DNA from: Owenia fusiformis
Lineage: Eukaryota > Annelida > Polychaeta > Sabellida > Oweniidae
Assembly (NCBI GenBank): GCA_903813345.2
Contig: CAIIXF020000001.1
Coordinates: 48,315,885 to 48,379,884 of the forward strand
Reading direction: 5' to 3'
DNA length: 64,000 bases
The notes beneath the pieces were generated by a model. That model was not told the DNA's origin. It worked only from the letters and a program-made list of their open reading frames with translations, and made no database searches. A program made the position numbers and the translations under genes. Of the stretch, positions 2,767-53,100 are shown piece by piece. Numbering within the stretch: the stretch's first letter is position 1; each line of letters begins with the position of its first letter.

Positions 2767-2795
2767 AATATTGAATCTCTTGACTTACTTTCAAG

Positions 2796-3008
2796 GGTCA
2801 GAGTACAACAAAAATTCAACAACCTGCTACGACTCAAGCTGCTTCAGCAAAGTCTACAAATGTTGTACCATCTTTGGAAGCACTTAATAACCAACCTATT
2901 GCATCAAATTCTATTGGACAGACTTCTAACACTTTAATGCATGGTGGAACCAAGAGATCCCACGACAGCTCGGAGAACAGCATACATTCAGCTAAACAAG
3001 CAAAACAG
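2796..3008 (+). CDS. Upstream exon a of the helicase/TAGT gene
   Basis: This is a 213-base exon, phase 0 on both sides, bounded by a pyrimidine-rich acceptor (ctttcaag) and the donor CAG/gtaaaaatc. It encodes a low-complexity, Ser/Thr/Gln/Asn-rich segment that starts GQSTTK and ends AKQAKQ. It is closely related to the exon at 3323, and the preceding intron sequence is shared too, so the pair is a tandem duplication. The frame continues into exons 5426 and 8653 without a stop. No function is recognisable; a disordered N-terminal linker is likely. The exon that precedes it was not found. Confidence 0.65.
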
Positions 3009-3322
3009 GTAAAAATCATTAGTAAATTGAGAAACTTATCAATCCAGATAAAAAAGTACAAGTAGGTTCAGCACAGATATGTAAGCACAATGACCGAAGG
3101 ATTAAACATAAATTCTTGAGAAATACAGCACAAGGAACTACTTCAAGATCTTTCATCAATGATTAAGACATTTGTCCAATGTAAAAGAGATTTTCTCCCA
3201 AGATCTGAGTGTCTCAACGTAAATCTGCTGTCATGAAAACAAAATAAGTTTGATGGGATTTGCTACGCCTTGACATTCCTATTATCTAGTTTTAATATTA
3301 ATTTTCTTGATTTACTTTCAAG

Positions 3323-3457
3323 GGTCAGAGTACAACAAAGAAGCCTACAAAAATTCAACAAGCTGCAACGAAAGCAAAGTCTACAAATGTTGTACCATCT
3401 TTGGAAGCACATAACCACTTTACACAGAAGCTTCATGCAGCTAAACAAACAAAACAG
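3323..3457 (+). CDS. Upstream exon b, duplicate of exon a
   Basis: This is a 135-base phase 0-0 exon with the same acceptor (ctttcaag) and donor (CAG/gtaaaaatc) as the exon at 2796. It encodes GQSTTKKPTK, a shared KSTNVVPSLEA segment and a KQTKQ end. Compared with exon a it lacks a central block of about 26 residues. Both copies are preceded by the same TE-derived sequence (GGGATTTGCTAC to TTATCTAGTTT), so the duplication unit included the intron edge. They may be mutually exclusive or both included; both choices keep the frame. Confidence 0.65.
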
Positions 3458-5425
3458 GTAAAAATCATTTGTCAATTGAGAAGCTTATCAATCCACAGAA
3501 AACAAGACACAGAGTGAACAGAATCGCACCCTTGAATATAATACAGTTTTCATGACAAACAAGATTTTCAGAATGAAAATCTAAAATGACAGCCTAAGAT
3601 CTAAACTTTTAAACTTAGAAACATCCCTGAAAATTTTTGATGAATCCATGAAACGGTTTGCCTGGAAACCTGTAGACAAGCCTTGACAGACAAGATTTTA
3701 GGACAGAAAATCCAAAATGGCCAACATAACATTTATCCATTTTTACAATGCAAATAGTACATACATGTATGTCTTACAAGATTCAGCACATCTAGAAAAG
3801 AAATGTTCTACAAAATCTGAGATTCTCATAGAGAATCTGCTTTCATAAAGGTGTCAATACGGTACATCATCGAAAAAAATTGAATATCACAAAATTCAAG
3901 TTCAGGGGTATATATATATATATAATAGCCATTTTCAAGCGAAGAGCCCATATAATGACTATATTTCCACGTTCCCCTTCATTCCTAACACTATATGTAA
4001 CACATGTTTTGCGTGTTGATCTTTAAATATCACTACGCCAAGATAGGGACTCTTTTTTAGGTGAAATTCCTGCTTCATCGATAAAAAATTAATGAATAAA
4101 GTAGTTCAAGTTTAAGAGACTATACACTTCAAACTTTTTTCTAAGAATGGTACATTTAAAAAGTAGTTGCCCTAAACTTTACATCAAAGTAATAGGTGAG
4201 CTTTTGAACCAGGAGTCATAGGGGAGTTTTCTGTATTGATGTTGAACAAAAATAACTTAAAACGTGAATCTTATCTACAGAGGTTTTAAGCCAAATGGTC
4301 CAAAAGTGGATTTCACGAGACAGATGGACAAATCAATGTTAACTAAAATGGCCGAAAATAAAAAAATGGATATAATTTTTTGCCGATGTTTTATACAACT
4401 ACTCTTTACAGTGACATGGCTTTTAACAATGCAGGACACCTGAAATTACCTGTAAAGCTAGGAAATGGGCCAAAAGTGAATTTCGCAAGACAAAAATGGC
4501 GACCATTTTGAAGATAGGCAAGCTTTTGAACCAGGAGTCATAGGGGAGTTTTCTGTATTGATGTTTAACAAAAATAACTTAAAAAGGGAATCCTATCCAC
4601 AGAGGTTTTAAAGCAAATAGTCCAAAAGTGGATTTTGCGAGACAGATGGAGAAATCAATGTTAACTAAAATGGCTGAAAATAAAAAACGAATATAATTTT
4701 TTGCTGATTTTTTAACATCCATGCGAAGATTGAACAAAGGACACACTATTTCAATAATAAAATGACATATCTAATGTGCTACTTCAATGTTTTAGCATAT
4801 CAAAAATATTTTGCAACCTGAGTGATGTCATCGATGACATTTTTCTCTGAACCATTTTCATGTATTGATGAGTTCATTTCTCACTTATTTATGAACTGAT
4901 TTTCTTAATTTTTTCGGCAAAAAACATGTGAGTATGAATGCTATGACTTATCGCTTATTAAAAGATACGTGTAACCTCTAAAAGTTAGTTTTAAAGAAAT
5001 TCACGAATTTTCAAACAAAAGGTCCTTCAAAAACCACTTTTTGTAATTAAAATAAAAAGTTTCACATATCAGACTTTGATAACATTTGGTAAGACTACAA
5101 TATAAGCCAAAGTGGTTTAAACTTTATATGGGGACTTTAAGAGAATTTTTTATTTTGTAATAACCAGTCGGTCAATCCTCTTCCTATTGCAACTGGATAA
5201 TGATAACATCATAGTGATACAACAACATTTGTAAAAAATATGATCAAAATCTAATGTCTGGAACTTAAGCTATGCGGACACAGTACTGCATCCTTAAATG
5301 TCAATTACAGGTATCAAATCTCATAAATGTAGTTTTACTTTTCAGTGATGAAAATGTAATCAAAAATACATGTGCTGTATAATAAAAAAAGTGATCAAAT
5401 AATTTAATGCCATATATATTTACAG
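3458..5425. other. Intron with non-coding repeats
   Basis: No coding signal was seen here. The intron contains a short TA run (3910-3925) and a duplicated segment (separate entry). Several stretches resemble the generic AAAATGGCCACC-type dispersed repeats found elsewhere in the window. Confidence 0.6.
4195..4720 (+). repeat. Segmental tandem duplication, about 322-base offset
   Basis: A block of about 205 bases that starts near GAGCTTTTGAACCAGG (4199) recurs at about 4521 with few differences. It includes the landmarks AGTCATAGGGGAG and AATCAATGTTAAC. No frame is open across it. Confidence 0.7.
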
Positions 5426-8012: not shown

Positions 8013-8652
8013 GCGTTATTAGCACAGACAGCAGCACAAAAGGATAGTTTCTAAATAGCAGAAAAATCAATGAAATCTAGTGCTGCCATCTTTTATTCAG
8101 CTTTTAACTTGGGCTAGAGTTCCATTCAGTTACATGCTAAAATCTTGGAAAAGTGGCTTAATTTCATGATTCATCAAACTGTGTTAGTTGAATCTGTATA
8201 AAACTTGAATGATATACCACATGATGACCCTGTTTATGTACATGTTGTGATTAAACATGCAAATGTTGATTAACATACAAGTAATCCATGGTTTTAAAGA
8301 ATTTTAGCATTGCATCTATGGAGATTTGGCCCAAGTTTTTTAAAATTGTCATAGAAAATTATTCAAATTACATAACTTTGTAAATCAAAGCTATTAAAGG
8401 AGAAAACAATGAAATGAATTCAAAAATGCCATTTAAAAGAAGGTAATGTAAGTCATTGGAGGTCTAATATGCAAGTCTCTTAAAATCTCACGAAAAACGA
8501 GATTTAGCGAGATTTCAAAAGCTATATGGAAACTATACTATTGTTTAAATCAAATAACTACCACCAAAATTCAAGGGGAGATCACTGTATATAGTAAGCA
8601 TACTAAATGTAGACCTTATCATGTTATCTTGAAATCATCTTTTATGTTTCAG

Positions 8653-11600
8653 CAATACCAGATAAAAAACAAATGGAGGCAAAACATGGAAAGCAAAAGA
8701 TTGTAGGTGAAAATATTTTTCACCTTTCCGATAGGACAGACGATTCTCATGAGAAAAAAGAAGAAAATGAATATGATAAAACTGATCAACAGACTGAAAC
8801 TAACTTTTATGAGCCAGTGGATTTATATCAAATGTCAAAAGAAATGCTAGACATTCATCCAGATGAAACGCAAGTAAGAAATTCCTATTTTCCCATTCAA
8901 GAGTTTCTGGCACAAGACATAATAAACAGAATTTCTCTCATACTCACAGAGTACAAATCAGAGAGAAACATAGATTCCGATACAATTCCAACTTCTTTAG
9001 ATGAGTTTGAAAGGTTTGATTTTCGTATATATACTGCAAGATATACAATGTTACGAGATCAAACTATAGCTAGGTTGTGTCAAAGGGAAATGGCTTGTTT
9101 TCCAGAGGAATCATACAACAATCCAAATGAGCTATATAATAAAGAGGGTAAAAAAAAGGTCAAGACATATGATATGAGTTTTGAGAAGGACTTTAATGAA
9201 TTCAAAAAACAAGCCGAGCAAAATCCTAAAATGCTCCACCTAGTTATTGCTGATGAAGCACACTGGGGATCAGATAAATCTACTGAAGAAGTAAGCCGTG
9301 CAAATGAAACATTTGTCAATTCTTGGAAAAATGATAAACATGGTAATGTCATTGTTCTTCAAGTTACAGCTACACCTTTCAACTTATTAAGTGATAACAC
9401 ACGACTTCCAAGCAAAAAGTACTGTGCAACTAGCATTGTCAACAATGAACTCATTTTGGTCCAGCAATTGGAAAAATCAAAACACTTAATGCAAGGCAAC
9501 AATATTGTGACTCAACTCGTTGGACCAAAAAATGATTTACACCATGTTAGATGGTCTGAAGCATTGAAACACCGCTTAGAGCAAGGTATAGTAGTCACTC
9601 TACAAATTCCCCAAAAGAAAAGTAAAGGTTCTTTTGATCAAGTTTGGCTTGAAGTTAGGAACAAAAAACTCTGTAAAAGCAAAGATTTGAAACCCAGTGA
9701 ACTTACCATACGAGGTGAAAATGGAATAGTTAAAGTGAGGCATGGGGGAAATATTCTAGCTGCCATAAAATATGGTAGTAGCACCCATTTAGAGTTTATT
9801 GATGAAAATGATTCAAACAGATTTAGCACAGAGTTTAACATCAAATTGGAATATGGAGAAGATGTGTTTCAATTGTCTACAAGAACAGAGACAGAACACA
9901 AAAACTTCATGAAATATTGCCCAAAAGAGGAGTGCATGATACTTGACAGAAAACCAGCTGAAAGTTATCAAGTATTGGGTGGTCTCAAGTTTGTGCAAGA
10001 CATCCATTACTTGATGGTGATTGGAATATGCAAGGCTTCACAGCTAGGGACCTTGAATACTAAAAACAAAAGGTATCTTTCCTTGACATTCTACTACAAC
10101 AGTATAAGAAACAAAGAGAAAGATGAGCAACTAATCAGATATGACAAAAACTTTTCTGATCTCTCTTCTGATCTCAGTAAGAACTCTGCAACACAAATAA
10201 ACACAAATCTGGATAGCCTTCTGGCTTCAGAATATGCTTTCTTCATACTAAGCAATGAAGGACTTCAGTCTTTAAAATTGCAAATTTCCTCACATCAGAG
10301 GGTCTCAATTCCCAAAACAATTTTTGAATCTTGGATTAAAAAAATCCATAAACTTCGAGAAGAGAGAACAACAACTTTTGCAAAAAATTTGGATGAGAAT
10401 CATGGGCAAAACCTGAAATTGATTTTTGAAGAAGTCAAAGATGCCTTGAAGAATATTCCACAAAGATCATTCAACAGTAATATATACATTAGACTCATGA
10501 AAAATATCATATATGGAGACGATTGTGAAATTGGTCCAGATTGTCCAGAAAAGCTTGAGAAAGATCAGTTGCTAGCTGCCTTTGATGTTTGTCTGAAAGA
10601 ATCCGAAACATTGAGAATAGTAGATGATTTGATTCAGGATCAAAGCGCTCTGAAAAGTGGGTTGAAGGGTAAAATGAAAATCATCAGGGCAACTGGTAAA
10701 AAAAATGGAGATAAAATTTATAAGATTTTGTGTCTAGCAAGAAAGGTAGCTGGTGGGACGGACAAAAACTACATGTTTGAGATTATTCGAGATTATTCCA
10801 ACTTCCAAATACGCGACATTAACAATGAAGATGACACTTCAGCACTTTATCGTATACGGCAAGTTTTACAGACCAATGACTGCCAACATGTAGATGAAAA
10901 TGAGGAATCAAGAGAAATGTGCCAGTGTAAGCGGTTGGAATATGAATCTAAATCGCTTGAATGCAAAAATTGTAAGCATAGACACAAATCAGTGACACAA
11001 TATTCTGACCTAGAAAATCTCCCATGTATTCTTATTCTAGTACAGAAAGGTAGAATGGGTGATACATTCCCTTCAAGTTTAAATACAATGGATTTGAGAC
11101 TACACTTTCAAGACTCAAAAAATCCACCCTACTTCAATGCAATAGTGCAGGAACTTGGAAGATTGTGTCGATACTCAGAAGAAATGCCACTCAATGAACT
11201 GCCATATGTGCTCATTGGAAAACATCTATATGAAAACTTTGAAAATTCTCTCGACTCAAGTGCTGTTTACTATGGATACATAGAGCAAAAGCCAAGCATG
11301 TTGGATCGCAGATTAAAAGCTGACAACAAAGCTGGTGGAAAAGGTGCTGATGTAGATAATGAAACAAAGCATTTTAACAGAATACTTCTGAGTGCAGAAC
11401 CACAAATAGGGAAGACCGGCACCTATCTAAAAGTAATTTCACTCATAAAAAAAATTATAAGACAAAATGTGAAACCACAAACCGCTTTGGAAGAATGTAC
11501 TGTAAGTGATGAGGAGCTCTCAGATGACAGTACTGACAATGAGAGTGGTGATGAAACAATTCCAGACTCGAAACAAGACAAATCAAAGTTCTGGCTTTAT

Positions 11601-13688
11601 CCACCTCGTAGGATGTTTAAGAAGGGGATACTTAAAGCAAAAATAAACTGCCAATCTAAGTATGACCCAATATATGGTCAATACAAACATGGAAAGGAGC
11701 CAACCAACAGATTTCTACCAAAATACACAAGAAAAGAAACAAATAAAAAAAGCAAAAAGAAGGGAAAAGAAACCAATGGTGAAAACCCATATAGACCAAT
11801 GACAAGGGTTCACACATGCCCAACATGTATGATTGAAGGACTCAACTCTCATGAAGTTGAAATAACAATCCAAGGTCAATGTACTTCAATATCAATACCA
11901 AACAGCAGATACTACCAAGCGAGAGTAATGAAAACACTCAATAAAAAATCATCCCCAGAAATACCAATGGATCCTCCCACTGGAAATGAGCTACAGTCTT
12001 GGATATTTACCCCGACCTATGGGAGAGCTACAACGGGATCTGTTAATTTCTGTGGGACCATGCGGCTCAAAGACAAATACAGAACCTCTTGTGAGTTCAT
12101 TCATGTGTTAGTTGTGAAACAAGAAGAGTATGAAGAATACTGCCTGAATTGGAGAACTACTCATGCCATCTTGAAGCTACCAAATAATATAGAAGATACT
12201 GATGTGCACAAAGGAGGAGTAGGATACAGCAGAAGGTTTATACAGCATTTTGCTGAGGAGTTCCACCTTGATACAATATTCATGATAGATGATAATCTTG
12301 CTGCATTTAAGGAGGTTAAGGAACAAGAAGGATTTTTGGAAAGGAATAATGGAACATTGAAAACAGAAAATATTCCTCTCTATGGAGTACTGAAACATCT
12401 AGAAAAAATTGGATCTGAAAATACCCTTGGGAAATCCACAGAAAACATTATATCAAGTTATTCTGGACCACTGTCGAAATATGGTATAGTTGGAATGATT
12501 AAGTTGAGAAAAGGCAGTCTCAGAGTGAAAAAACCATTCAAGCAAACACATGTACATTCTCTTGTCTTTGTAAATATAAAAGCACTTAAAGCAAAGGGTG
12601 TTAAGTACAGACCCTGGCCTGTGTTTGAAGACTTGAATATGAACAATGATGCTGATAAAGCGGGGCTAAATGTGGTGAAGTTTAGCAGATTCTTTATGGT
12701 GAAACGTAACCTGAAGTCTTGGATCAGTGAAATGTGTACTTACAACCTAGAAGACTTCAAGACAGATAACAGGCTCCCAATGGCTCAAGGATGGGATGAC
12801 AAACTTGTCAGATGGCTGAGATGCAACTCACGGCCAAACAAAATAATACAAGTCAAAACAAGAAGGAAACATGAAAATAACATCCATGAGACAAAGGTGG
12901 AATGTCTCATAAAGAAACTTGAAGGATACAAAACCCAGGATCATAATCAACAACAGATTTTGATCACAAATGTAGAAGGGTCATTGGTTGAAGAGACTAT
13001 GAAATATTCAATACTTGACAGGATAAAACCAGATGATAAATGTATCACAATGGTTTTGTTAACCTCTCAGGAAATGCAAATGTTTAGCAAAATACTGAAA
13101 GAATCAAAGTATGACTGCATAATAGTAAGTAGCCACAACATATCGGAATACAATGTTCCATGTGTTTTGTTACATATGCAAAATGCCAAGTATGAATGCA
13201 AAGAGGAGACAGATTTGTCACTAGATAATAGTGTTCAAATTGAAATTGACTCTACAGAGGTAATGAAGGTAGAAATGGACCCACAGACAGAAGAGGAGAC
13301 AGATTTGTCACTAGATAATAGTGTCCCAATTGAAATTGACTCTACAGAGGAACTGTCAAATGGCAGTAAGGAACAGCAAAGTGGGAAAATTAAAATGGAG
13401 GAAGAGATGGACATACAGCCAGATGGCAACTGGAGTCATTTTTTCTTTAAAAAAATGAAGGAAATAGAAGAAGAAAACGCAAGTTTGAAAAAAGAAAATG
13501 CTAAGCTAAAGGAGCATAAGTTGCCAGTAGTAGACAAGAACCACAAATATAGATGTAATGACTGTGGAAAAGAGATCATGAATTCATTCTTCCATTGCAC
13601 ACAGTGTGACGACTACGATATATGTGTTAAATGCATGACTACATCATCCCATCAACATCCTGTACTGTTTGTTCCTAAACCAAACTGA
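8653..13688 (+). CDS. GREB1-like circularly permuted SF2 helicase / TAGT glycosyltransferase / ZZ-finger protein (terminal exon)
   Basis: This 5,036-base exon follows the acceptor tatgtttcag and continues the frame of the exon at 5426. Residues below count from the internal Met at 8673 (1,671 aa). Helicase motifs run in permuted order: VIADEAHWG, motif II, DEAH 194-197; VTATPF, motif III, about 231-236; GRMGDTF, motif V-like, about 793; QELGRLCR, motif VI, 826-833; then SAEPQIGKT, Walker A, 907-915. A CxC/CxxC cluster (about 749-772) and HTCPTC (about 1047) may bind zinc. A glycosyltransferase-like domain follows, with TPTYGRA (1113), GVGYSRR (about 1187) and FMIDDN (DD at 1206-1207). Two copies of a 30-residue acidic repeat, a coiled coil (about 1596-1620) and a ZZ finger (about 1623-1665) close the protein. 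Permuted SF2 helicase followed by TAGT domain is the known layout of metazoan GREB1; the ZZ end is not part of GREB1 as I know it. Catalytic residues look intact. A nuclear role is inferred. Confidence 0.75.
13204..13353 (+). repeat. In-frame 90-base duplication in the acidic linker
   Basis: The segment that encodes EETDLSLDNSVQIEIDSTE at 13204 recurs exactly 90 bases later with one residue changed (Q to P). Near identity at DNA level points to a recent in-frame duplication. It lies between the glycosyltransferase-like domain and the coiled coil/ZZ finger. Confidence 0.85.
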
Positions 13689-30000: not shown

Positions 30001-33000
30001 GAAATGGTCAGAATGACCATAAACATGATAAAATAACCTTTTTAGCCCTCTGAAGATGTGGCTGAAAAATAGCTAAAAGTAGGTGCTCAGGAAAGGTCAA
30101 TGAACAGAATCTTTTGATTTTTTCAGAATATGTGTCCAATATATTGCTCTAAATGACACAATCTTTGAAATTTTAAAAAATCGTCTGAAACAATAATGGC
30201 TGTAGTAAAAAGGAAAATAGATCGATTTTCAATTCAGTTTTTTTCAATTTTTTCTTTTTCTAAGAATGATATCAAATTTTTTTGAATTGTATCATTTAGA
30301 GCAATATATTGGGCACATTTTCTGAAAAAGTCAAAATATTCTGTTCAGTGACCTTTCCTGAGCACCTACTCTTAGCTATTTTTTAGTCACATTTTCAGAG
30401 GGCTGAAAAGGTTATTCTATCATATTTATGGTCATTCTGACCATTTAAACTGTGTTCCTGGTCATGTAAATGATATGTGGAACTAGTTAAACTGACTGGA
30501 GGTCCAAACAGAACTCTGTTATCTTGGTTCAAAAAATTTTCAAAATCCAGCATGGCTTTGTCATTTTTTGTTTTGTCACTTCCTGTTAACTTCCATGAGA
30601 CCTTAAGGATGCGTACTAAAAGCCCTGCATACCATACTTTAATATGTGTTTCTTTCTTAATACATAGCTCAATATTTCCTAGAACTAGCAATTGTACTCT
30701 TCCTGTGGTATTTAATAAATGAAATAAATCATATAAGATTATGCCAATTATGGGAACTGTATGAGGATATCCAAATGAGCATATACATCATATTTATTTG
30801 TTTCCCAGTTTGGCTTACATAATTTATACTTTGAGACACTTTGTAACATCAATAATAAATGTAACTAACAAAATACCATTTTTTAAATATCTTAGCTTGT
30901 GATAAGACATACACCCACTAGGGTGTCATTATCACTGATATGTATATATGTTTATATGATTTTAATAAATAAAAAAATTTTAAAAAGGGACATACAAAAA
31001 GGTAAGTAAACAAGGCATTTGTTACAGATGCCAACCACTGAACACCAAATACCAGCCGTCGTCCACAAAAATTGGACAACACTTGTGGTGGTGACATAAC
31101 AATAGAAAGTGAGCAAAGCAAAGTAAAGTATACAAAGTTCTCCCAAGGTTTTTTTCTCACGTGTCAAGTGTAAAAATTCTCATAATTTCTCGCCAATAAA
31201 GTTGGTAAAAATTTGACAAATTCTCATAATTTCTCACATTTCCAAAACAGTATGTATGTTTTCAAAATCTGAAGTGGGTGCAGCATCCATTTGCTTTATA
31301 CTTGGGAGAACACTGGATATATGTCCATGCCTTACCTTGATACCAATGGATGTTGTGAAGCCTTTGCAGACAGAAGGTATAAGAACTATTACAAGCAGAG
31401 TTCCCAATCCTATTGCTCCCCAAGGAATCATCATACACTCAATACACCTGCTACCAACACGGTGGAACCCTAAATAATAACATAGTTGGTATAAACATCA
31501 TTGTTGTATCTAGACAAGCACCACAAATATAAAAGTTGATCAGGCAGGAAAATTCTTAAATATTATAAATATAACAGAATTTTTTGTTTTTCCGTAAAAA
31601 ATACCAAACTCCCGTACCGTTTTCTCCCGTAAAAACTCCCGTACCGTATTTCTACTAAAATCTCCTGTAATTTTTTTTAAAAATATGGCCGTAAAATCTC
31701 CCGTATTTTTGCTGAAATCTCCCGTAAAATCTCCGTATTCTGGTATAACTCCTGTAAAATCTCCCGTATTCTTGGTATAACTCCCGTAAAATCTCCCGTT
31801 TTCTGGTATAACTCCCGTAAAATCTCCCGTATTCAGATTCAAAATCTAGAGTAAAAATTCTAGTTTTTTCAGAAATCTACCGTAGAAACTAGTTTTTTCA
31901 AAATCGACCGTAAAAACTCCCGTTTTTCCGAAATCTACTGTAAAAACTCCCGTTCTTTCAAAATCTACCTTAAAAACTCCTGTTTTTTCAAAATCTAAAA
32001 TAAAAACTCCCGTTTTTTCAGAAATCTACCGTAAAAACTCCCGTTTTTTCAAAATCTACCGTAAAAACTCCAGTTTTTTCAGAAATCTACCTTAAAAACT
32101 CCTATTTTTCAGAAATCTACCGTAAAAACTCCAGTTTTTTCAGAATTTACTGTAAAAACTCTCGTTTTTTTCAGAAATCTACCGTAAAAACTCCCGTTTT
32201 TTCAGAATCTACCGTAAAAACTCCCGTTTTTTCAGAATCTACCGTAAAAACTCCCGTTTTTCAGAATCTACCGCAAAAACTCCCGTTTTTTCTGAAATCT
32301 TCCATAAAAAAGTCATGTTTTTTAAAATTTACCGCGAAAAATACCTTTTTTAAAAAATCTCCCGTAAAAACTCCTGTTATTTCAAAATCTCCCGTAAAAA
32401 CTCCCGTACTTTCAAAATTTACCGCAAAAACTCCAGTTTCAAAATCTACCGTAAAAACTCCAGTTTTTTTCAAAATCTAGAGTAAAAACTCCTGTTTTTC
32501 AGAAATCTACCGTAAAAACTAGTTTTTTCAAAATCGACCATAAAAACTCCAGTTTTTCCGAAATCTACCGTAAAAACTCCAGTTCTTTCAAAATCTACCT
32601 TAAAAACTCCCGTTTTTTCAAAATCTAAAGTAAAAACTCCCGTTTTTTCAGAAATCTACCGTAAAAACTCTCGTTTTTTCAAAATCTACCGTAAAAACTT
32701 CCGTTTTTTCAGAAATCTACCTTAAAAACTCCTATTTTCAGAAATCTACCGTAAAAACTCCAGTTTTTTCAGAATTTACCGTAAAAACTCTCGTTTTTTC
32801 AGAAATCTACCGTAAAAATTCCCGTTTTTCAGAATCTACCGCAAAAACTCACGTTTTTTCTGAAATCTTCCGTAAAAAAGTCATGTTTTTTAAAATTTAC
32901 CGCGAAAAATACCTTTTTTAAAAAATCTCCCGTAAAAACTCCTGTTATTTCAAAATCTCCCGTAAAAACTCCCGTACTTTCAAAATTTACCGCAAAAACT

Positions 33001-34710
33001 CCCGTTTTTTTAAATCTCCCGTAAAAACTACCGTTTTTTCAAAAATCTCCTGTAAAAACTCCCGCAAAAACTACCGGATTTTGAAAAAAACTCCCATTAA
33101 AGTACCGCAATTTTTTTTAAATCTCCCGAAAATTTTTCATTTTAGGTTGGCAAGTCTGTATAATGCAAAGTCTGCTTCACTTTCACCCTATGGAGACTAT
33201 GTGTACATAAGACACTTGCTGCAGATAACATGATTGATGCAGAATGTATTAAACCTCCAACACATAGTTTTTGAAATTGAAGTTTTTATATTATATTATC
33301 ATTCTCAGCCTTCATACAGTATTGATGGAGCTACCCCTTAACACATACAGCAAATAACACTGAACAAACTTGGAACTACGTGTAAAATAAGTTGATATGA
33401 GGTATTAGCAATATCATATCCCAATCCTAGGATTATGTATCGATATATGGGTTTGACATATGTAGGAAAAAGGTTTAAAGGCCCCATGTAAAGTTTGAAA
33501 ATATAGTTTAACCTTTCAAATATTACTTTCCAAAACTAAAATTTTAAAGCATTTTAAAAAGTGTGTGATGTCAGGATAATATGCTGTGATGTCAATCAGG
33601 TGGCAAAAAATGTTTTCAAAAAATTGTTAATCTTTTTTCTTGTGCAAATAATTTCTAATAATGCTGAACTTTCAAAATAAAGCAATATTGCCTGTGGGTT
33701 ACATTATTGCATGCAATAATCTGCAGCTGCCCAGGCTTGTACTTTTAAGAACAAGGCACAGGGTGAACAATATTGTACCAGTGTGTGCAAGATGGCCGCC
33801 GAAAAGTTAATCAGCTCTGGAACTTCTTACAATGTAACATGTGTGAAAATCCGTCATGTGGTTTTCCCTGAATCGTGATAACAAGAAAAGTGAGACGATG
33901 CCCGTCAAGCTGACGACAATATTGTACCTTTTTTTAGGTATGATAAAAACTATGACTAAATAAGCGCACGGCAAATGGCCGATATATAAAATTCTTGTTT
34001 AGTAACTTACCATTATGTTCAAGTGGATCTCCATATTCATCGAGGGTGACTTCATGTTTCTCTAGACAACGTTCACACATTGCACCTGTGCTAGGTTTTC
34101 TACATGTGTTGTTAAGGATGCAGTCATTAGGAAACATACATGTGTTACACAGATGAACATGTGTATCTGAAATGATATTATTCAAAGGTTATCATAAATG
34201 GTTGGTATATAGATTCCTTTAAACTATTACTTTTTTTTAAAAACAGGTCAATCACTAGCCTTGCCCGAGTCGGTATTTTTTGCTTTTCTGATCTTGAATT
34301 ATTACTGCCTTGTACAATCTAATACATCTCCGCTGATATTATAAGTTAATCAGCAGTTTCGAGATTTCCATAATTCCTACACTGGCAGGGGTATCGCGAA
34401 ACCGCATTGATTGACAGATCGCACGACTTGTGACATCAGGCTGATTGACCAATGAAAACATTTTCAGGTTTACCCTCATAAGCAAAGCAAACTACCCGTC
34501 TACGACTTGAAATTCAATGATCTGATCGAGTATTTTTTCAGTCTTCACAGTTACAATAGAAAATGGTTGACAAAGAAACTCACCTCCATGTATGTCTGTA
34601 AAGTTAGAATTGGGGTCACATTTTATTCCAATAGATAGTTTTTCATGGCCATCAGCTGCATGAAGAAAACAGATGACTGCTACCGTCCCTAGTATCCAGG
34701 ATTGCAACAT
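18029..34710 (-). CDS. Secreted-start, cysteine-rich, membrane-spanning protein (partial, 4 exons)
   Basis: Exons on the minus strand are 34710-34584, 34166-34011, 31469-31336 and 18161-18029. Donors are GAG/gtgagt, ATG/gtaagt, AAG/gtaagg and TTA/gtaagt, and phases agree at each junction. Exon 1 starts with a signal peptide (MLQSWILGTVAVICFLHA). Exon 2 has eight cysteines in a CxxC-rich pattern (CNTC, then MCERC). Exon 3 has CIEC, then a hydrophobic segment IGLGTLLVIVLIPSVC. Exon 4 reads VRLLVHYLQLLALSLSL and is hydrophobic. The layout resembles the invertebrate and choanoflagellate family with ephrin-receptor-like cysteine repeats and several membrane helices; this is recognition by eye. No stop codon was reached, so more exons are expected to the left of 18029. 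The 13-kb intron between exons 3 and 4 is packed with transposons. Function is unknown. Confidence 0.6.
18298..18812 (+). repeat. Three copies of an about 100-base repeat
   Basis: A unit that contains CCTAATCAGA, CTAGTCTGCTCTTGCATC and TTTCAAGTTGA occurs at about 18298, 18588 and 18726. Between the copies lies sequence related to 28550-28900 (CAATTTGGAGCAAGTTGAAA). No frame is open through it. Confidence 0.7.
18816..19095 (+). repeat. Repeat family C, plus copy
   Basis: This block of about 280 bases is nearly identical to the reverse complement of 27750-28020. Shared landmarks include GAATCGGGGGATTTTT, ATAATCCATGGATTAAC and GAGGGCTGGGAATC. It has no coding potential. Confidence 0.8.
19868..20060 (+). 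repeat. Family A repeat fragment
   Basis: It contains GGGGATATAGTGAAGCCCTCCGTCCGTC, given here only as the family landmark GATATAGTGAAGCCC, and a following segment like the AATTGAAG portion of the full copies at 817 and 47111. It is truncated at both ends. Confidence 0.5.
21253..21662 (+). mobile_element. MITE family B, copy 2
   Basis: It starts AGATGCGAGTAG and ends CTACTTGCATCT, the clearest inverted ends of the three copies. The internal sequence matches 7586-8012 and 50727-51149 throughout, including GATTCCCCATAG and CACCTGGTGG. Confidence 0.75.
21748..21838 (+). repeat. Minisatellite of about 21 bases with palindromic core
   Basis: Four units of TTAGCAAAGATACAATCTTTG run in tandem with few changes. 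Each unit holds the imperfect palindrome CAAAGATACAATCTTTG. The minus-strand frame is open only because of the repeat. Confidence 0.8.
23020..23150 (+). repeat. Dispersed repeat family E (ACCACTGAACACC / GTGGTGACAT)
   Basis: The segment holds repeated CCAACTGCCAAACACC units, then GTCCACAAAAAAG and CACTTGTGGTGGTGACATAA. Related copies lie at 31018-31100 (+), 57620-57735 (-) and 60354-60425 (-). The last landmark is itself a short palindrome. Confidence 0.65.
23613..23715. repeat. Perfect 22-bp inverted repeat
   Basis: Bases 23613-23634 (TATGACCTGAATCGATTG and onward) are the exact reverse complement of 23694-23715. The loop is 59 bases. No coding context was seen. It may be a small foldback element or a structured transcript segment. 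Confidence 0.8.
24096..27109. mobile_element. 3-kb non-autonomous DNA transposon with TIRs, 5-bp TSD and nested palindrome
   Basis: The left end CACGGGTAGTATC and its inverse at 27097-27109 are the tips of TIRs of about 70 bases with a few mismatches. AAATA flanks both sides (24091-24095, 27110-27114). Subterminal arrays carry CCCGCTGAAA four times on the left (24145, 24539, 24559, 24584) and its inverse TTTCAGCGGG four times on the right (about 26647, 26669, 26690, 27049). The centre (about 25190-26010) is a second palindrome around 25757, built of repeated CAGGTGAATATGCCATA-like units. No transposase reading frame was recognised, so mobilisation would need a helper. A CAC start with a 5-bp duplication is reminiscent of Transib-class elements, but this is inference. 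Confidence 0.8.
25555..25990. repeat. Central hairpin inside the 3-kb element
   Basis: CATATTCCGCGTAAC and GTTACGCGGAATATG lie a few bases apart around 25757. Arms of roughly 200 bases extend outward with CGGTATATGGC, TATTCACCTGCGG and related units. Open frames appear on both strands because of this symmetry and are not genes. Confidence 0.75.
27750..28020 (-). repeat. Repeat family C, minus copy
   Basis: This is the inverse of 18816-19095 with very few differences. The two copies sit about 8.9 kb apart in opposite orientation, and each has the CAAGTTGAAA repeat on its CTCGCCCTCC side. Confidence 0.8.
28550..28900 (-). repeat. Tandem repeat, about 110-base units (CAAGTTGAAA)
   Basis: Four diverged units hold CAGATTTGAACTTCTGA, GATGATTTTGAAAA and GAAGCAAGTTGAAA. 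One related unit is at 18430-18530. Minus-strand frames look alike between units because of the repeat and are not independent genes. Confidence 0.7.
29455..29520. promoter_or_regulatory. NRF1-like palindromes
   Basis: TGCGCATGCGCA at 29455-29466 is a perfect NRF1-type palindrome, and GACGCATGCGCG lies about 35 bases downstream. An ETS-type ACTTCCGG follows at about 29622. This looks like a promoter, yet no gene start was identified nearby. Confidence 0.4.
29842..30606. mobile_element. TTAA-flanked foldback element
   Basis: Arms of roughly 350 bases are inverted copies. The outer ends are TTAAGGTCTCATGGAAG on the left and CTTCCATGAGACCTTAA on the right. TTAA at both tips could be a piggyBac- or Kolobok-type target duplication. 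Inner landmarks are GGTGCTCAGGAAAGG and its inverse. The two similar open frames inside are one sequence read in both directions. Confidence 0.75.
31018..31100 (+). repeat. Family E repeat copy
   Basis: It holds ACCACTGAACACC, CGTCCACAAAAATTGG and CACTTGTGGTGGTGACATAA, as in the copy at 23020. It lies in the large intron of the minus-strand gene. Confidence 0.6.
31545..33135. repeat. 1.6-kb minisatellite of CTCCCGTAAAA-type units
   Basis: About 50 units of roughly 28-31 bases occur, with consensus GAAATCTACCGTAAAAACTCC followed by a CGTTTTTTC run (shown in two parts). Variants alternate CTCCC, CTCCA and CTACC. A higher-order block recurs: AAATCGACC at 31901 and 32531, and the rare GTCATGTTTTTTAAAA unit at about 32313 and 32879. 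Minus-strand frames through it give TGVFTVDF-like repeats that are by-products. It lies inside the intron between exons 2 and 3 of the minus-strand gene. Confidence 0.9.
33136..34010. other. Remainder of an intron of the minus-strand gene
   Basis: No exon or clear repeat stands out. A GATGGCCGCC motif near 33790 is typical of the dispersed repeats in this window. Confidence 0.45.
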
Positions 34711-37292: not shown

Positions 37293-40200
37293 ATGAAGAA
37301 GGCCGAGGTAATCAAGTGGTCATGTGTTGTCAAAGTTCAAAAAATTTCCATATCTCGTTTGGATCTCGTGAACTCAAACGTCCTTGACATTGATTTCGCG
37401 ATCTACTTATGAACACATCCTGAAGTTTTGGTGAGTCTGAACATTTCATTATTTTATATCAACTTGTACCCGCCTTATACAAATATTTTTGCTTCTAGTT
37501 TAAGATGAACATCTCTTCAACATATTCACCAATTTTCAAGGTGAACATTCTTGTAATAAACGAGAAATTAATGTGCAAAAAATATCACCGCGATTTCCAC
37601 AGGAAATATATCAATCATAACAGACCGAATATTATATTCGGTCTGTTGGATACATACTAGGCGGCACCCCCCTGAACGGACCTCTGCCAGATTACCTCTT
37701 CTTCAGTGGTGTCTAGGCTCAATAAATATACCCATTTATCCTTTGAGCCTAAGCTTACTACCAATAATGGGAGCTGGATCTGGCTCCGGATCTGTGCCCG
37801 CCCGTGTACAAAAAATTGACCAGTACCCCCCCCCCCCCCCCGGGACTCACTAAAACTGTGAACACTTACTTTTTCTATGGGATATAAAGTTCAAGTAGAA
37901 ACAGATACTTACAATTTCTAACCTATGTAAGGACTCTATAAAAGATCACCGTAAAGGAGAAATTGATAAAAACAGCAAAATAGTGCTTTTCAATTTTGTG
38001 TATGGCCTCGTTCTGAACTATCAGTAAGGCGGATGAATCTAAAAATAGTTCCTTTCTTTCCTTAATTATTTTCATTCACATCGTTGGCCATGACAACATT
38101 TTTTAAAAACATCAATCAAATTAATTTGATTTACCTTATTTGGGAACATATCTGAACAATCTTTGCGCAGGAATAGTAAAACAACATCTTGAAACTATAT
38201 TCAATAGCCCAAGAACATTTGTTTACATCCGGTGTTCTTTGGCACTAAAAAGTCATGAAATATGCGAATAACTGCACAGGTTTGATACGTTATTTTCTGA
38301 GTATATTGGATTTTATCATATTTAGCAATTCCTTCATATATTGTTTTAATTTTAGGTGATTCGCTCTCGAGCCAAAAAGGCACTACATTCAGTAGAGTAT
38401 CTCGATATAAGCAATCTTGAAATTGGTAAGTTTCCTCATTTATCATTTCTTGTTCATAAGCAATTTTAGCAGGGCCTAAATAAGGCTAATGGAATATAAG
38501 TTATAACAAGACTGAGACCTCTCTAAGGATAATAAACGCTTTAATCAGAAAATCAATGTAATCCAGAAAGTAAGTACAGTTTCTGGTGCCTGTCATCATC
38601 ATCATCATTTAGAAGATACATGTACATGATTCGATCAATTTTACTGATCACTAGCCTATATCGCAGTCTAGTACAAAAAAGTTAAAAAATGAACATCAAC
38701 AACAAGTTCATGAACTTAAAACAGTGTTAGGTAATAAAAAGCTAAAACAATCAGTTAAAAGACAATATAAGATTAAGGCATTAGTGAGCCTTACTAAATG
38801 TATATTTGCACATAGCCATCATTTAGATTGATCATCAATCAGGAAGAAGCTAGTGCCTATAATGATTGAATCCAGGAGAGCCGGGGCAAAAGCTGTCCTC
38901 AATGGTGACAAGTTGTACATAAATAATGTCTTGTACACTGGTCCACTAACACCACCAAGTGCAAATATGCAAATTGCACCAAGTGCAAGTTCATCATTTA
39001 CACCACCAGGTGCAAACAAGTCAGTTGCACCAAGTGCAAGTTCACCTACTATACAGGGTCCTAGTGCACTCACATTAACTGATCAACTCTAGTAATGTTC
39101 ATTCTATTTGTATGACTCTAACTAGGATGTAAACTTTGACTACAAATGGTACATCCCAAACATTTTTCTGCAACCAGAAACTTTTTGGCAATTGTCCATT
39201 GCCTATGATTATAAGGTGGACAATCCTAACACTGAGTTATTTTTACATTGCAACCTAGTATATTCACTCCATGCTATATTATTACAATATTGCAATATTG
39301 ACATTGAGTTGAGTGGTTTTTGTTTTGTTTTTTTTGTGAAAATGAATCACAGTGAATTTGCTTGGAGAACCCTTAAAACTTGATAATAAAGTGTCTTTAC
39401 AAGGACCTTACAATTAAATTGTCTGTGATATTGTTATAGGAAAGACTGTATTTTTCTCATTTCTACATGAATTCAAATTATTGTTCATATTGTAAATTTG
39501 TTATGATAAACAGGAATTTGATGGATGTTCAGAGTTTGTTTTTTTCTTTCTTTGAGTGAATTTGGTAAACAGACAAATTGGTTGTTAGGGCCTTATATGG
39601 AAGTGTGATCTGAATATTGGGCTTTATTAATGACCCTTGCCTAAAATGTAAGGTATCAAATAGTCATGTTTCTTTCAAAATAATGATTTTGGGAGAGGGA
39701 AATTAAATTTTGTATATAATCACTTTTCTATCATCAAATTATTCGTGCATGGTTTGATATCAGTAATGAAATATTTACTAATGAACTATATTTAAACCTG
39801 TCACATATTACATATTATATTATAGCAATTAGAATTTGAAAATTTCTCAGGAGCTAGAAATTCACTATTGCCTATGATCACTTATACACTTTTGGTTCTA
39901 CGTGGTGGTGAGTTGTGGATGAACTTTGTGTATATATCCTCTTATGGTTGAGTCAAATGCTGATGTATGGAAGGAATTGCCATTTTTTGATGTAATTGAT
40001 GAAAATCAATTTCTTGAAATTGTCCCCCATGGAAATTTGATGGAAATGTTTGAAAATAGAATCTTCAATCCAACATTAGAAAACTTAACAATTGCTGAAG
40101 AAGCAAATACTTTATTCAATGACAATGTGAATGAAGGGATTTTAAATTGCAATTATAGAACATTAAATCAACTTGAATCAATATTAAATACAAATGCAAA

Positions 40201-43200
40201 TCATGATTTCTCTATAATTCACTTCAACACTCGTAGCCTTCCCAGTAAAGTAAATGATATTAGATTATTTCTTGCTCAAATGGCTAAAAATTTACCGAAA
40301 GTGATTGTCTTGTCTGAAACATGGCTGCAAGATGGTACAGAAAGTACATACAATCCACTATTTTCAAATTACAATGCTTTTTATCGTTCTAGGAAAGACA
40401 AACAAGGTGGTGGTGTAGCTATTTTTACCTTAAAAAATATTAATGTCAAGTCCAGATCAGATCTAAAGTTTGATGATGTTAATTGTGATTCCCTATCAGT
40501 AGAAATATTAAATAATTCTTCAAAAAACATTTTAATTACTGCCATTTATAAACCACCACAAATAGACATAAATGAATTCAATATCAACTTAAAGGCTTTC
40601 ATGACTAAAGTAGACGAGTCTAAGAAGTTATCAGTTTTGGCTGGGGATTTCAACATTGACCTTTTTAAGCATGAATTACATGACCCCACTAAAGACTTCT
40701 TGAACTTGCTTTATTCATTTAACCACCATCCCCTTATTTACCGTCCAACTAGAGTAACATCCCACTCTGCTACACTAATTGATAATATTTTTACTAATAT
40801 AAATAACATAAAGCATGGTGATGTAATAATTATGGACATATCTGATCATTTTCCTCTATTTGCATTAACTAGTACTGTATTGAGGAAGTCCACAAGCAAA
40901 GAAATTTCATATAGAATTTTTGATAAGCGGAGTATTGGAAATTTCAAACAAAAGTTGAGTGTTTTAAACTGGGATATTTTGCAAACTACCGATGATGTAA
41001 ATGATTGCTTCGAAATATTTTCAGATATTTTTCAAAACATATACAATGAATCTTTTCCTCTTAAATTAAAGAAAGTGAAACTTTTTGTTGATACTTCTAA
41101 GCCATGGATTACAAATGGGATTATCACATCAGCCAAGCAAAAAAATAATCTTTATCGTAAATTTATGAAGACCCCTAGTGAAGAAAATGAAAGAAACTAT
41201 AAAATATATAAAGCAAGGTTCAGAGCTATTTTGAGAGCTGTAGAAAAAACCCACTATCGGAATCAATTTGAAACTGCATCTGGAAATATTAAACAAACCT
41301 GGAATATTATCTCTGACATTTTAAATAGAAAAAAACTTCATACAGTGGTTCAAAACGAATTTCTGGTCGATGGTATTGCAGTAAATGATAAAAAGTTGAT
41401 TGCCAATAAATTCAACTCATTTTTTTCTTCAATTGGATTAAAATTAAGTTCTAAAATTCCAGAGTCAAACAGAACACCAAATGAATATATTAGTAATATG
41501 GGACATTTTGAAAATAGATTTCACTTAACACCAGTTGATGAAACAGAATTGTCATTATTAATACAAACTTTGAAAGATAAGGCAGCATCTCTTGATAATA
41601 TTAAACCGATTATTGTAAAACATGCTAAAAATGAACTTATACAGCCTTTACTTTTGATATTCAATAAATCCTTTCAACAGGGAATTTTCCCGGATAAACT
41701 CAAAATAGCTAAGGTAACACCAATTTTCAAAAAAGGACAAAAAGACAATTTCTCAAACTATAGACCAATTTCAGTCTTGCCAGTTTTTTCTAAACTTCTA
41801 GAAAAACTTATTAACTTCAGGCTCTGTAATTTTATCACAGAAAATGAAATATTATATATTCATCAGTATGGCTTTCAGAAAAATGTCTCTACCTTTATGG
41901 CAATCTTAACTTTTGTTGAAAACATACGACATGCGCTGGAGAACAATGAATATTCACTTGGTATTTTTTTAGACTTGTCTAAAGCCTTTGACACTATTAA
42001 TCATAAAATCCTTCTAGATAAATTAAATTTTTATGGAATTCAAGGGTCTGAACTATCTCTTTTTAAATCATATCTAAAAGATCGAACGCAAATTGTATCA
42101 TATAACAATATTGACTCTGATCTACAAAGTATATCATGCGGTGTGCCACAGGGCTCAGTCCTTGGGCCGACATTATTCATATTATATGTAAATGACATGT
42201 TTAAGGTTTCCAATATTCTAAAAAGCGTAATATTTGCTGACGACACTAATTTGTTGGCCTCAGATAAATATTTGAAATCTCTAATAGAAAAGGTTAATAA
42301 TGAACTTGATCTTATGGACGATTGGTTCAAAGCAAATAAATTGTCAATAAACTATTCTAAAACAAAATTTATCTTGTTCAATAAACAGAAACGACAAATC
42401 TTTAGAGATATTAAAATTGATATGTCCGGGAAACAAATTGAAAGAGTAAAATCTATCAACTTTTTAGGTGTCATTGTTGATGAACATATTACCTGGAAAG
42501 AACATATTAAACATATAGAAGCAAAAATATCCAGAACAATTGGTCTCTTATATAAGATTCGCCACCTATTGAATAAAACAAGTCTTTTGGCAATCTATAA
42601 TTCCCTGATATACTCACATATAAATTACTGTAATTTAATATGGGGTGGCCATAGCAATGCTCATACAAATGAGCTGCATTCCCTACTTCTATTTCAAAAG
42701 AGATTCCTTCGAATATTAGACAACCAGCCAAGAATGGCACATTCAGCACCTCTCTTTAAAAAGTACAACATTTTACCTGTAAACCAGGTGTATGAATTTA
42801 ATGTTTCGAATTTTGTCTATTGTTGTATTTACCAGGAACCTGTTTATTCGAAACTATATAATGATTATTTTAATCAAAATGAATATTTTCACAATTATCC
42901 TACCAGAAGAAGTCATGATTTACATGCTAGGGCTTACAAAACAAAAATAGGGTTATATTCAATCAAAGTACAGGGTCCAAGAATCTGGAATTCTATCTCA
43001 GATCATGTCAGATTTTTGCCTTCTTTACTTCAATTTAAAATGACTAGAAAGAAAAACTTAATTGCTGAAATATAATTATATATTGTCACCTCATCTACCT
43101 TTCCATCCATACATTTTTCCTAAACCGAAATAGAGTTAACACAATTGGCAGCCACAACCCACCACCACTAGCCATAAGTTAGATGCATACATATGCTATC

Positions 43201-50100: not shown

Positions 50101-53100
50101 ATCCTAGAAGACCTAACATATTTTACCATACCGTGTGCTTATTCATTTAGCAATTCAATCGTAAATTTTCTCTTTAAAAACTGCTCTGCTCATGGAGGAA
50201 TTTTCAAGATGGCTGCTTAATTCAAAATGGCCACCATATGTAAATTCATATGATTTCACTACTCAAAATTCAATGCAAAAACAATTATACCAAAAGAATC
50301 TTTGTAGTATTCAACTGATCAGAAGAGTGACATGTTTTTGATTTTTTGTTTCTTTTTTTCTTAGATATGTAGAGTACTTTATTGTTTTATTGCTGTTTTC
50401 AGGCCTCACTTGAGTTTGCTTTACCTGCCAGCCTTGTACAAAGTACCCTTCAGACATCCAAACTTGCAGTGGTTGGGTAAGTTCATTCACATTTGTAATA
50501 CTGAACTTCAAATATAACATTTAGATCATGATAATGTTTCTTGTTCTGTGGTAAACCCTGATTTCTTGTGAACTTTTATTTTGTAATGGTATTTTGTCAT
50601 ACAACACATGCTCTTTTACTAATTTTTGTACACCATTGCACAGAGGTGAGTTGAGTTTTAAAGTCACGAAATAAAACTCTTGAAAGAGAAATCCTTTCTT
50701 TGTCTAAACTAAGTCTTACATAGACTAGATGCGAGTAGATTTAATCTTGATTTACGTCATTAAATATTCAGAGTTCAGTCAAAGTGATATCATATTTGAA
50801 ATCTACAAGTAAAAATACATCTGGTAATATGGTTACAGAAATTGTTTATCATCTTTGAAAATTTATTTTTTTTGAAAATGTAATTTCTAGTTCGGGGAGA
50901 TTCCCCATAGAGCCCATGTTATAAAATCAGAAAAAGTTAAATATCTTTTCTTGTAATGGACAGATAATATTTTCTTTAACTGGACATATTTTAATTTGCA
51001 TAACTATTAGATACATAAGGGTGATATGAAAATTGAACTGCTAAAACAGATGAATATTAAGTTAAAGGGAACTTTCTCCTATACCCGATATGCTATCTGA
51101 CCCGAATGAGCCACCTAGTGGTGAAACTGGTAACTACCTACTGGAATCTGAGTCATTGTTCCATCAATACAGAGTACTTTAGAGTTCAGAAAAAATGCCT
51201 CTCTTCGTTTCACTTTTCAAAGCTACATGCAGGTTACATTTAGTTTTTTTTGGATGTCTATTTAATGAGATGAGGGCCCTGCATCCCATTCTTAATCAAT
51301 ATGATTCATATTGTCTCATTGTAGGAGAGTATATACCATGGACTTATTTATGTTGCCCCGTGATATGCGTTGTCAGGTTGCTTCCATTCTCCTTAGCGCA
51401 GTGAAGGTAGACAGAGACATAGGACAGGTATGTATTTATAAGAAATAAATAATTATAGGCCATTTAATATGGTGAAATTCAGCATGAGTTGGACAGAATG
51501 TCGTACAAAGCACAAACTGATGGTGAATGCATTTGTACTGACATTCTGTCCAATGAGTTTAGAATTTCACCATATTGAATGGCCTCTCATTATTTATTCT
51601 GATTCAAACATAAAAATGAAAAACCTGATCAATTTTTTTTCTATTTTCCTCGTGAATTTTTTATGAGGATTTTATTTTTCTCAAGAAATTAGAAACATGT
51701 TGTTGTAACTGATGTGAACCATCAGTGTTAAATGTCATTATTTGTATTGAACAATGTCAATCTCTTTCATTTAATTCTATTTTGTTGTTTTTCATGAGGT
51801 TCGATTTAATTTAATTTATATATGATTTCCTCCAATCAATTCTCAATCCTTGCCTTGTTATCTCATTTTTGAATTTTTCACATTGCTCAATTACGTCCAA
51901 TTGATTTAAAACTTTTGATTTTCAAATGAAAACACTGACATTGTTAGTATTCACTTAATTCTAAAACATCTGATTTCAGGAAGGAGGGTTATATGATAGA
52001 CTGTATTTAGCACTGTATCATTCAGTGTCACAATTGATGAGTCTAGGTCATTCAGATAACACTTGCAAATCACCCACCAAAGTAAAACCCACTCCAGTGT
52101 AAGTACAAACTTAATGCAGGCTGTTCAATATGTTAAAGCAAACATTTTACACTTTTCAAGCAAAGAGATTTGATCTTCAGCAGTATTAGAAATGGGAACT
52201 TGTCAATGACTTAGAAATCATACAAACTAATAATATTAGTGCTATGAGGACTATGAATATTTGAACATATTTTAGAGATTGTTTTTACTGATTTGTTTTG
52301 ATTTAGGAAATTAAAAAGTCAAGTCACCTTATATAAAGGCTAATAGATGCGGACTAAAATATTGACCTAATATAAATTATCGAAAAACCAAAACATTTTG
52401 TGTAACTTACAAAGTTTACGCCAGTGATCTGTTCCTTTTAACCACATTTTTGAACCAACATGTTCAGCAGCCCATCATACACATATACTTGTACATGTAC
52501 TTTGTTTTACAGAAATTAATATTAATAGTTTTGTCAGATAAACTCAAATGATTATCCTGAATGAAATAAAGTCAGAACTGTGGGACTTTTTCAAATATAA
52601 TCATGACATGGAATAATGAGAGTAAAATATTGTAAATTTCTCTGCAACAATTTGTTCTAAATGAATTAACTGTCAATGTGCTATGTAGTTCCTTTGAATC
52701 ACCCATATCAGTTTGTGTTACTTGAACTTGAGCTGGCTTATTATTTGTTTCTTGTTCTTATTCCAGACTAAAGGAATCCAAGTGCCTAATAGCATCCGAA
52801 GTAGTACAACTAATGTGTATTGTAGCATCATTCTTTGAATGCTGCCTTCAAGATGTGGGTAAGTTTTATTTTGAAAAATATCATGGTACATGTACCAGTA
52901 TATTGTGGGTTCCACAGCCTCTTCAAGTTTTATTTTGAAAATTATCATGGTACATGTACCAGTATATTGTGGATTCCACAGCCTCTTCAAGTTTTATTTT
53001 GAAAAGTATCATGGTACATGTACCAGTATATTGTGGGTTCCACAGCCTCTTCAAGTTTTATTTTGAAAAATATCATGGTACATGTACCAGTATATTGTGG

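Follow-up and report, generated by a model that had tools for sequence, protein, structure and literature searches.

Do animals carry glycosylated DNA bases, and on what does the transferase domain of GREB1 act? These questions are touched by a locus of the annelid Owenia fusiformis, located in a stretch of 64,000 nucleotides (hereafter the window; assembly GCA_903813345.2, contig CAIIXF020000001.1, positions 48,315,885 to 48,379,884 of the forward strand). The window contains a long reading frame encoding a GREB1-like protein of 1671 amino acids, in which a circularly permuted superfamily 2 (SF2) helicase is followed by a glycosyltransferase domain of the TAGT family and by a C-terminal ZZ-type zinc finger (Table 1). 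From the evidence below, we tentatively favour (probability of roughly 0.4) a nuclear ATP-driven chromatin glycosyltransferase that would act on DNA, with the 5-hydroxymethylcytosine (5hmC) made by TET as favoured substrate. The original prediction for this locus, made from the DNA letters and their reading frames, had proposed a GREB1-like permuted helicase fused to a TAGT glycosyltransferase and a ZZ finger, with Pfam profile searches and a structure prediction as checks.

A permuted helicase in a GREB1-like protein

The scan of the protein against Pfam detected the families cpSF2-GREB1 (PF20692), TAGT (PF20691) and ZZ (PF00569), all above their curated cut-offs. The helicase profile (E 9.9e-83, 279.4 bits for a cut-off of 26.2) is matched in two stretches; the second corresponds to profile positions 659-708 and contains motif I, and positions from about 430 to 658 of the profile are unmatched. 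Along the chain, the motifs are found in the order II (residue 194), III (232), VI (826) and I (912). The N-terminal piece alone scored 22.9 bits with the profile of ordinary SF2 helicases (ResIII), covering profile positions 65-163 of 164, the part with motif I being absent. When the Walker A segment (residues 895-950) was moved before this piece, the score was 27.0 bits, and one shuffle of the same segment gave 22.2 bits. This gain is modest and in the direction predicted by circular permutation. The motifs DEAH, A-T-P, LGRLCR and PQIGKTG are present in the four copies of the gene described below, including the most distant one at about 42% identity. With the complete set of motifs I, II, III and VI, the motor may be active. 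A cluster of cysteines and histidines within the helicase is a possible zinc site.

The designation GREB1-like is thus borne out, since both PF20692 and PF20691 exceed their cut-offs and the order of the motifs is the permuted and not the ordinary one; all the motifs listed in the original prediction (DEAH, TATP, QELGRLCR, GKT, TPTYGR, GVGYSRR, IDDN and the C-terminal ZZ) were located. The domains GREB1_N, GREB1_2nd and GREB1_C gave no match in the 1671 amino acids (Pfam, E up to 1), and for this reason our assignment stops at GREB1-like, short of a GREB1 ortholog. These three domains gave no match in a scan of the genome either, but the control searches were equally silent. Profile searches of the PDB sequences with two alignments (E up to 1 and up to 10) detected no helicase or glycosyltransferase, and PADLOC detected no match for the protein. 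Besides the transferase, PHROGs returned one further weak match, and NCBIfam three weak matches far below the cut-off.

The frame begins close to a putative intron boundary. Position 8653, the start given in the original prediction, is the base directly 3' of an acceptor-like TTTCAG. In all four copies, an acceptor-like site of equal phase lies close to where the main frame begins (inside the open frame, 3' of the first ATG, in the copy of contig C6), so the gene likely has at least one upstream exon and the N-terminus of the predicted protein may lie further 5'. Such unseen exons could hold the N-terminal GREB1 domains. A repetitive frame of 457 amino acids was observed upstream of the copy of contig C12 (L007:471-1844), and short relatives of it are found in the window at 2784-3062 and 3313-3484, ending in the donor-like CAG/GTAAAA. 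These repetitive pieces may represent 5' exons of this gene, though the phase does not fit directly.

The TAGT domain and its fold

The cut-off of PF20691 is passed by the four copies (56.7-66.8 bits); in those of contigs C12 and C6, the best stretch is limited to roughly the first half of the profile. In PHROGs, residues 1111-1323 match phrog_842, annotated beta-glucosyl-HMC-alpha-glucosyltransferase (HMC, hydroxymethylcytosine), with an E-value of 1.4e-6. An alignment of the window copy with 14 viral rows, drawn from 13 of the 25 viral loci described below, reveals that ten residues (I1111, P1114, R1118, Y1156, R1187, D1206, D1207, E1319, D1320 and W1350) are identical in the 15 rows and in the four copies. 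The sequences DDN and FEDL are likewise found in every copy, down to 42% identity.

A structure predicted from the single sequence had a predicted local distance difference test (pLDDT) of 30.6, and the AlphaFold2 model of the TAGT part obtained from the 15-row alignment had a pLDDT of 48.6 and a predicted template-modelling score of 0.55. The search of this model against the PDB with Foldseek gave GlcNAc-transferase I as top match (E 9.3e-4), the sole match at E <= 0.001; enzymes of the GT-A (glycosyltransferase A) type represent most of the best 50 rows, with nucleotidyltransferases and ATPase subunits interspersed. GlcNAc-transferase I takes glycoproteins as substrate. With VIA-align, CHSY3-CHPF was matched over 168 residues (root-mean-square deviation 3.7 A) with a Z of 10.4, a value to be read against the best Z of 7 to 8 that is common among models without a clear match; mannosylglycerate synthase followed closely, as did IspD-type nucleotidyltransferases, which have the same core. 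The search of BFVD placed two TAGT proteins first and a beta-glucosyl-HMC-alpha-glucosyltransferase third, an agreement that is partly built in because viral TAGT rows were used for the model. The model supports the GT-A fold class as the probable one, and not a particular donor or acceptor.

The C-terminal ZZ finger

The ZZ finger is intact in the window copy (C1) and in the copy of contig C12. The frame of C11 stops just before the finger, of which a recognisable decayed remnant lies downstream (L008:5560-6100), and C6 has a different C-terminal tail with no ZZ match. Between C1 and C12, the finger region retains all ten cysteines and histidines, and 30 of its 43 residues are the same in both copies; in a neutral simulation (dS 0.357), the probabilities of these values were 0.00025 and 0.0021, respectively. 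This distribution is most simply explained if the finger dates back to the ancestor shared by C1, C12 and C11, and the finger is not an accident of assembly. The solved chains nearest to the finger are fission-yeast P35G2.11c and CBP/p300 (E 1e-7 to 6e-4), followed by p62 and HERC2 at E about 0.05 only. No GREB1-ZZ fusion, nor a study of an invertebrate GREB1-like enzyme, was found among the matches listed from the open-licence literature.

Two further parts of the original prediction also stood: the span 1100-1450, where the transferase had been placed, contains the TAGT match (residues 1111-1345) and yields a GT-A-like model, of modest quality, that matches GT-A enzymes, and the ZZ fusion is real, being intact at a second locus.

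Copies in the genome and selection

In the assembly searched (498.3 Mb, 525 contigs), at least four loci pass the cut-offs of cpSF2-GREB1 and TAGT. They belong to four contigs, C1 (the window), C12, C11 and C6, and each has a single long frame. The identity to the window copy is 78-79% for C12, 74-82% for C11 over its pieces, and 42-43% for C6. The ratio of nonsynonymous to synonymous substitution rates (dN/dS) between C1 and C12 is 0.31 overall, 0.225 in the helicase, 0.29 in the glycosyltransferase part and 0.535 in the ZZ finger. Overall ratios are 0.28 for C12-C11 and 0.40 for C1-C11, and those of the helicase among these three close copies range from 0.18 to 0.31; synonymous sites are saturated in the comparisons with C6. 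None of 300 neutral simulations of the coding sequence remained free of stop codons at a dS of 0.365. The copies are under purifying selection, and the constraint on the ZZ finger is weaker than elsewhere in the gene but real.

Viral relatives and the methylation setting of the host

A tblastn search of the glycosyltransferase part against phages returned 11 records, of which none reached significance (best E 0.7). These records were taken as chance because several are tail or tape-measure proteins. The best one is a gene of Nonlabens phage P12024L annotated beta-glucosyl-HMC-alpha-glucosyltransferase. Another (E 6) is a gene of a T-even-like phage located between an annotated pyrimidine hydroxymethylase and a T4 beta-glucosyltransferase, and a third (E 3) comes from Aeromonas phage PS49, where the neighbouring genes are unannotated. 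With E-values of 4.2e-21 and 5.2e-7, the proteins of P12024L and of the T-even-like phage exceed the Pfam TAGT cut-off; a Tet_JBP gene (E 5.9e-27) precedes the TAGT gene of P12024L. The T6 TAGT is described as being of GT-A type and as glucosylating hydroxymethylcytosine that is already glucosylated (PMC13216743), and PMC13390438 concurs on its likely role.

A viral scan seeded from these phage TAGT proteins recovered 25 loci, of which 22 were matched by the P12024L TAGT with phmmer and the other three with tblastn only, over 83 residues. One locus (L033) ends short upstream, and some contigs are near-identical. In 19 of the 25 loci, TAGT is preceded by a TET-like frame on the same strand; in one of these 19, the viral frame L035:529-2241 joins TET/JBP and TAGT in a single protein. 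Two different TAGT-like frames in tandem (1501-2211 and 2208-2951) were observed on the viral contig L036, after a frame that resembles ParB by eye. Concerning the origin of the fused protein, no viral or bacterial relative was detected by scans of the viral-contig and genome-contig collections, nor by tblastn searches of phages and plasmids with the entire protein, both kinds of search having short reach at such divergence.

In the Owenia genome, three TET/JBP matches were detected on contig C9 and two DNA-methylase matches on contig C6. One of the TET/JBP matches contains internal stops, as expected of a six-frame match overrunning an exon edge. The observed/expected ratio of CpG amounts to 0.49 over the window as a whole and to 0.27 for the coding sequence, against GpC values of 1.00 and 0.87. 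Depletion of CpG is the usual sign of germline CpG methylation. Given the TET exons, the DNA-methylase exons and this depletion, the host likely has 5-methylcytosine (5mC) and a route to 5hmC.

Surroundings of the gene

The window contains only one further ATG-, GTG- or TTG-initiated frame of at least 250 amino acids, a retrotransposon frame of the non-LTR (long terminal repeat) type, and another non-LTR retroelement adjoins the C11 copy. In a comparison of the flanks, which covered 20 kb around each of C12, C11 and C6 and the initial 24 kb of the window, the similarity beyond the frame was limited to short, dispersed pieces of at most about 570 bp and to tandem repeats. Carriage of the gene as transposon cargo was considered and rejected, no shared element ends being seen in the 20-24 kb compared per locus. 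Three tandem arrays are present in the window: 31784-33064 (30-bp unit, 42.5 copies), 52861-53853 (64-bp unit, 15.5 copies, 98% matches) and 56575-57122 (31-bp unit, 17.7 copies).

Table 1. Positions of the features in the window; residue numbers of the 1671-residue protein are in parentheses.
Feature	Position	Strand	Remarks
Putative 3' splice acceptor, 5' of the ATG	8633..8652	+	TTTCAG at 8647-8652
Reading frame of the GREB1-like protein (permuted SF2 helicase-TAGT-ZZ)	8673..13688	+	ATG start, 1671 codons without stop
Circularly permuted SF2 helicase, first stretch (71-835)	8883..11177	+	PF20692, profile 2-429 of 716
Helicase motif II, DEAH (194-197)	9252..9263	+	Invariant in 4/4 copies
Helicase motif III, TATP (232-235)	9366..9377	+	A-T-P invariant in 4/4 copies
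Cys/His cluster within the helicase (C750, C752, C764, C767, H769, H771)	10920..10985	+	Invariant in 4/4 copies
Helicase motif VI, QELGRLCR (826-833)	11148..11171	+	Q826, L828, G829-R833 invariant in 4/4 copies
Helicase motif I (Walker A), EPQIGKTG (909-916)	11397..11420	+	3' of motif VI; IGKTG 912-916, GKT 913-915
TAGT glycosyltransferase domain (1111-1345)	12003..12707	+	PF20691, E 3.2e-18, 66.8 bits (cut-off 27.5)
TPTYGR motif (1113-1118)	12009..12026	+	P1114, R1118 invariant with 14 viral TAGT rows
GGVGYSRR motif (1181-1188)	12213..12236	+	R1187 invariant with 14 viral TAGT rows
IDDN motif (1205-1208), DxD-like site	12285..12296	+	D1206, D1207 invariant with 14 viral TAGT rows
F-E-D (1318-1320), conserved ED pair of TAGT	12624..12632	+	E1319, D1320 invariant
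Probable short coiled coil before ZZ (about 1590-1615)	13440..13517	+	By eye
ZZ-type zinc finger (1623-1662)	13539..13658	+	PF00569, E 2.2e-9, 37.4 bits (cut-off 21.4)
Non-LTR retrotransposon frame, endonuclease and reverse transcriptase domains	39923-43075	+	26 kb from the window copy

Proposed function

In the reading that we favour, the ZZ finger would dock the protein on a histone tail or on a partner, and the motor would translocate along DNA or open it at the expense of ATP. The TAGT domain would move the sugar of a uridine diphosphate (UDP)-sugar onto a hydroxymethylated pyrimidine in DNA, most likely 5hmC produced by the TET of the host. The protein would represent a single-chain counterpart of the phage pair of TET and TAGT genes. 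DNA is favoured as substrate because the phage relatives of the TAGT family act on hydroxymethylcytosine in DNA. The identity of the domains, the complete and permuted motifs of the four copies and the ten TAGT residues shared with the viral rows point in this direction, together with the TET-like frames upstream of 19 of the 25 viral loci, the TET and methylase exons of the host, the CpG depletion and the purifying selection.

Several observations weigh against a DNA substrate or an active enzyme. The ZZ finger is broken or missing in two of the four copies. Three positions kept in all 14 viral rows differ in the Owenia protein, where D is replaced by N1322 (T in C11), Q by D1326 and G by a gap. 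The quality of the glycosyltransferase model is modest (pLDDT 48.6), and catalysis and binding are predictions from the sequence. The TET neighbourhood is partly built in because the seed of the scan itself adjoins TET: 17 of the 19 TET-positive loci share 62% identity or more with the seed-type sequence, no TET match was found at the five most distant viral loci (L036-L040), and the link is extended to distant members only by L034 (43%) and L035 (33%). For human GREB1, O-GlcNAcylation of the oestrogen receptor ER-alpha is reported (quoted in PMC10908778 and PMC12645433). Finally, according to a review (PMC11065753), the metazoan homologs of the base J glucosyltransferase (JGT) were predicted to lack activity, and metazoa seem to have no base J.

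The reported activity of human GREB1 leads to a second reading, which we hold possible, with more doubt than belief: the TAGT domain would O-GlcNAcylate nuclear proteins, the motor would bring the enzyme to chromatin, and protein substrates or H3 tails would be picked by the ZZ finger. The position of GlcNAc-transferase I at the head of the Foldseek matches is in agreement with such a role, as are P35G2.11c and CBP/p300 as nearest solved relatives of the finger; the nearest annotated sequence family (phrog_842) is however a DNA-base transferase, and an intact DNA motor is not obviously required for the glycosylation of proteins.

A third reading, a scaffold that serves as chromatin cofactor while at least one of its two enzyme domains lacks activity, as proposed for the helicase of vertebrate GREB1, appears improbable. 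Maintenance of DEAH, ATP, LGRLCR, PQIGKTG, DDN and FEDL in the four copies down to 42% identity is not what it predicts, nor are the helicase dN/dS values of 0.18-0.31 among the three close copies, even though the three deviating positions of the TAGT domain and the predicted inactivity of the metazoan JGT homologs (PMC11065753) would fit it. A fourth reading, recent mobile or retroposed copies with a ZZ tail acquired by chance in one insertion, is very improbable. It would be suggested by the distribution of the loci over four contigs, each with one long frame, and by the non-LTR retroelements beside the C11 copy and 26 kb from the window copy. Against it, no shared element ends were seen in the 20-24 kb per locus, conservation of the acceptor site speaks for a normal gene with splicing, and the finger is intact at two loci with its ten cysteines and histidines kept (neutral P 0.00025).

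Returning to the DNA-directed enzyme, its extension to an animal lineage with active DNA hypermodification, in which TET would oxidise 5mC and ATP-driven histone-reading helicase-glycosyltransferases would glycosylate the product, seems rather unlikely. If true, this route would give a sugar-bearing base in an animal genome. The two questions posed at the outset arose when TAGT was linked to GREB1 (prediction quoted in PMC4111573). A genome with at least four copies, intact motor motifs and core transferase residues, and exons of TET and DNA methylase is a better test bed than vertebrate GREB1, because the helicase of the latter is described as non-catalytic (PMC6163654). The ZZ fusion gives a handle on the targeting of such an enzyme.

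Comparison with known systems

In the base J system (JBP1, JBP2 and JGT), as in the route proposed here, the methyl group of a pyrimidine is oxidised before a sugar is transferred, in base J by a glucosyltransferase (PMC11065753). JBP2 couples an SNF2 motor to the oxidase (PMC11065753), whereas the motor of the Owenia protein is coupled to the glycosyltransferase and the TET matches are found on another contig; JGT is set beside it by description only. The phage TAGT proteins of T6 type (PF20691, phrog_842) share with the Owenia domain the Pfam family, the ten invariant residues and the GT-A type. The two phage proteins, of 252 and 278 amino acids, are stand-alone and adjoin a TET-like or hydroxymethylase gene, whereas the Owenia TAGT is fused to a helicase and a ZZ finger and differs at three positions conserved in viruses. 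The ZZ fingers of CBP/p300 and P35G2.11c are the nearest by sequence, with partner domains other than those of the Owenia protein.

The closest architecture is that of vertebrate GREB1, where a permuted SF2 helicase is likewise followed by TAGT (Pfam; PMC6163654), and the pairing of these two domains is of the known GREB1 kind. The helicase of vertebrate GREB1 is described as a presumed nucleic-acid binder that lacks catalytic activity (PMC6163654), and for this reason the complete motor motifs of the Owenia protein represent a real difference. As judged from the sequence, what distinguishes the Owenia protein from known GREB1 is thus the complete set of helicase motifs, the absence of GREB1_N, GREB1_2nd and GREB1_C from the protein, the presence of several genes with a long single frame, and the ZZ tail.

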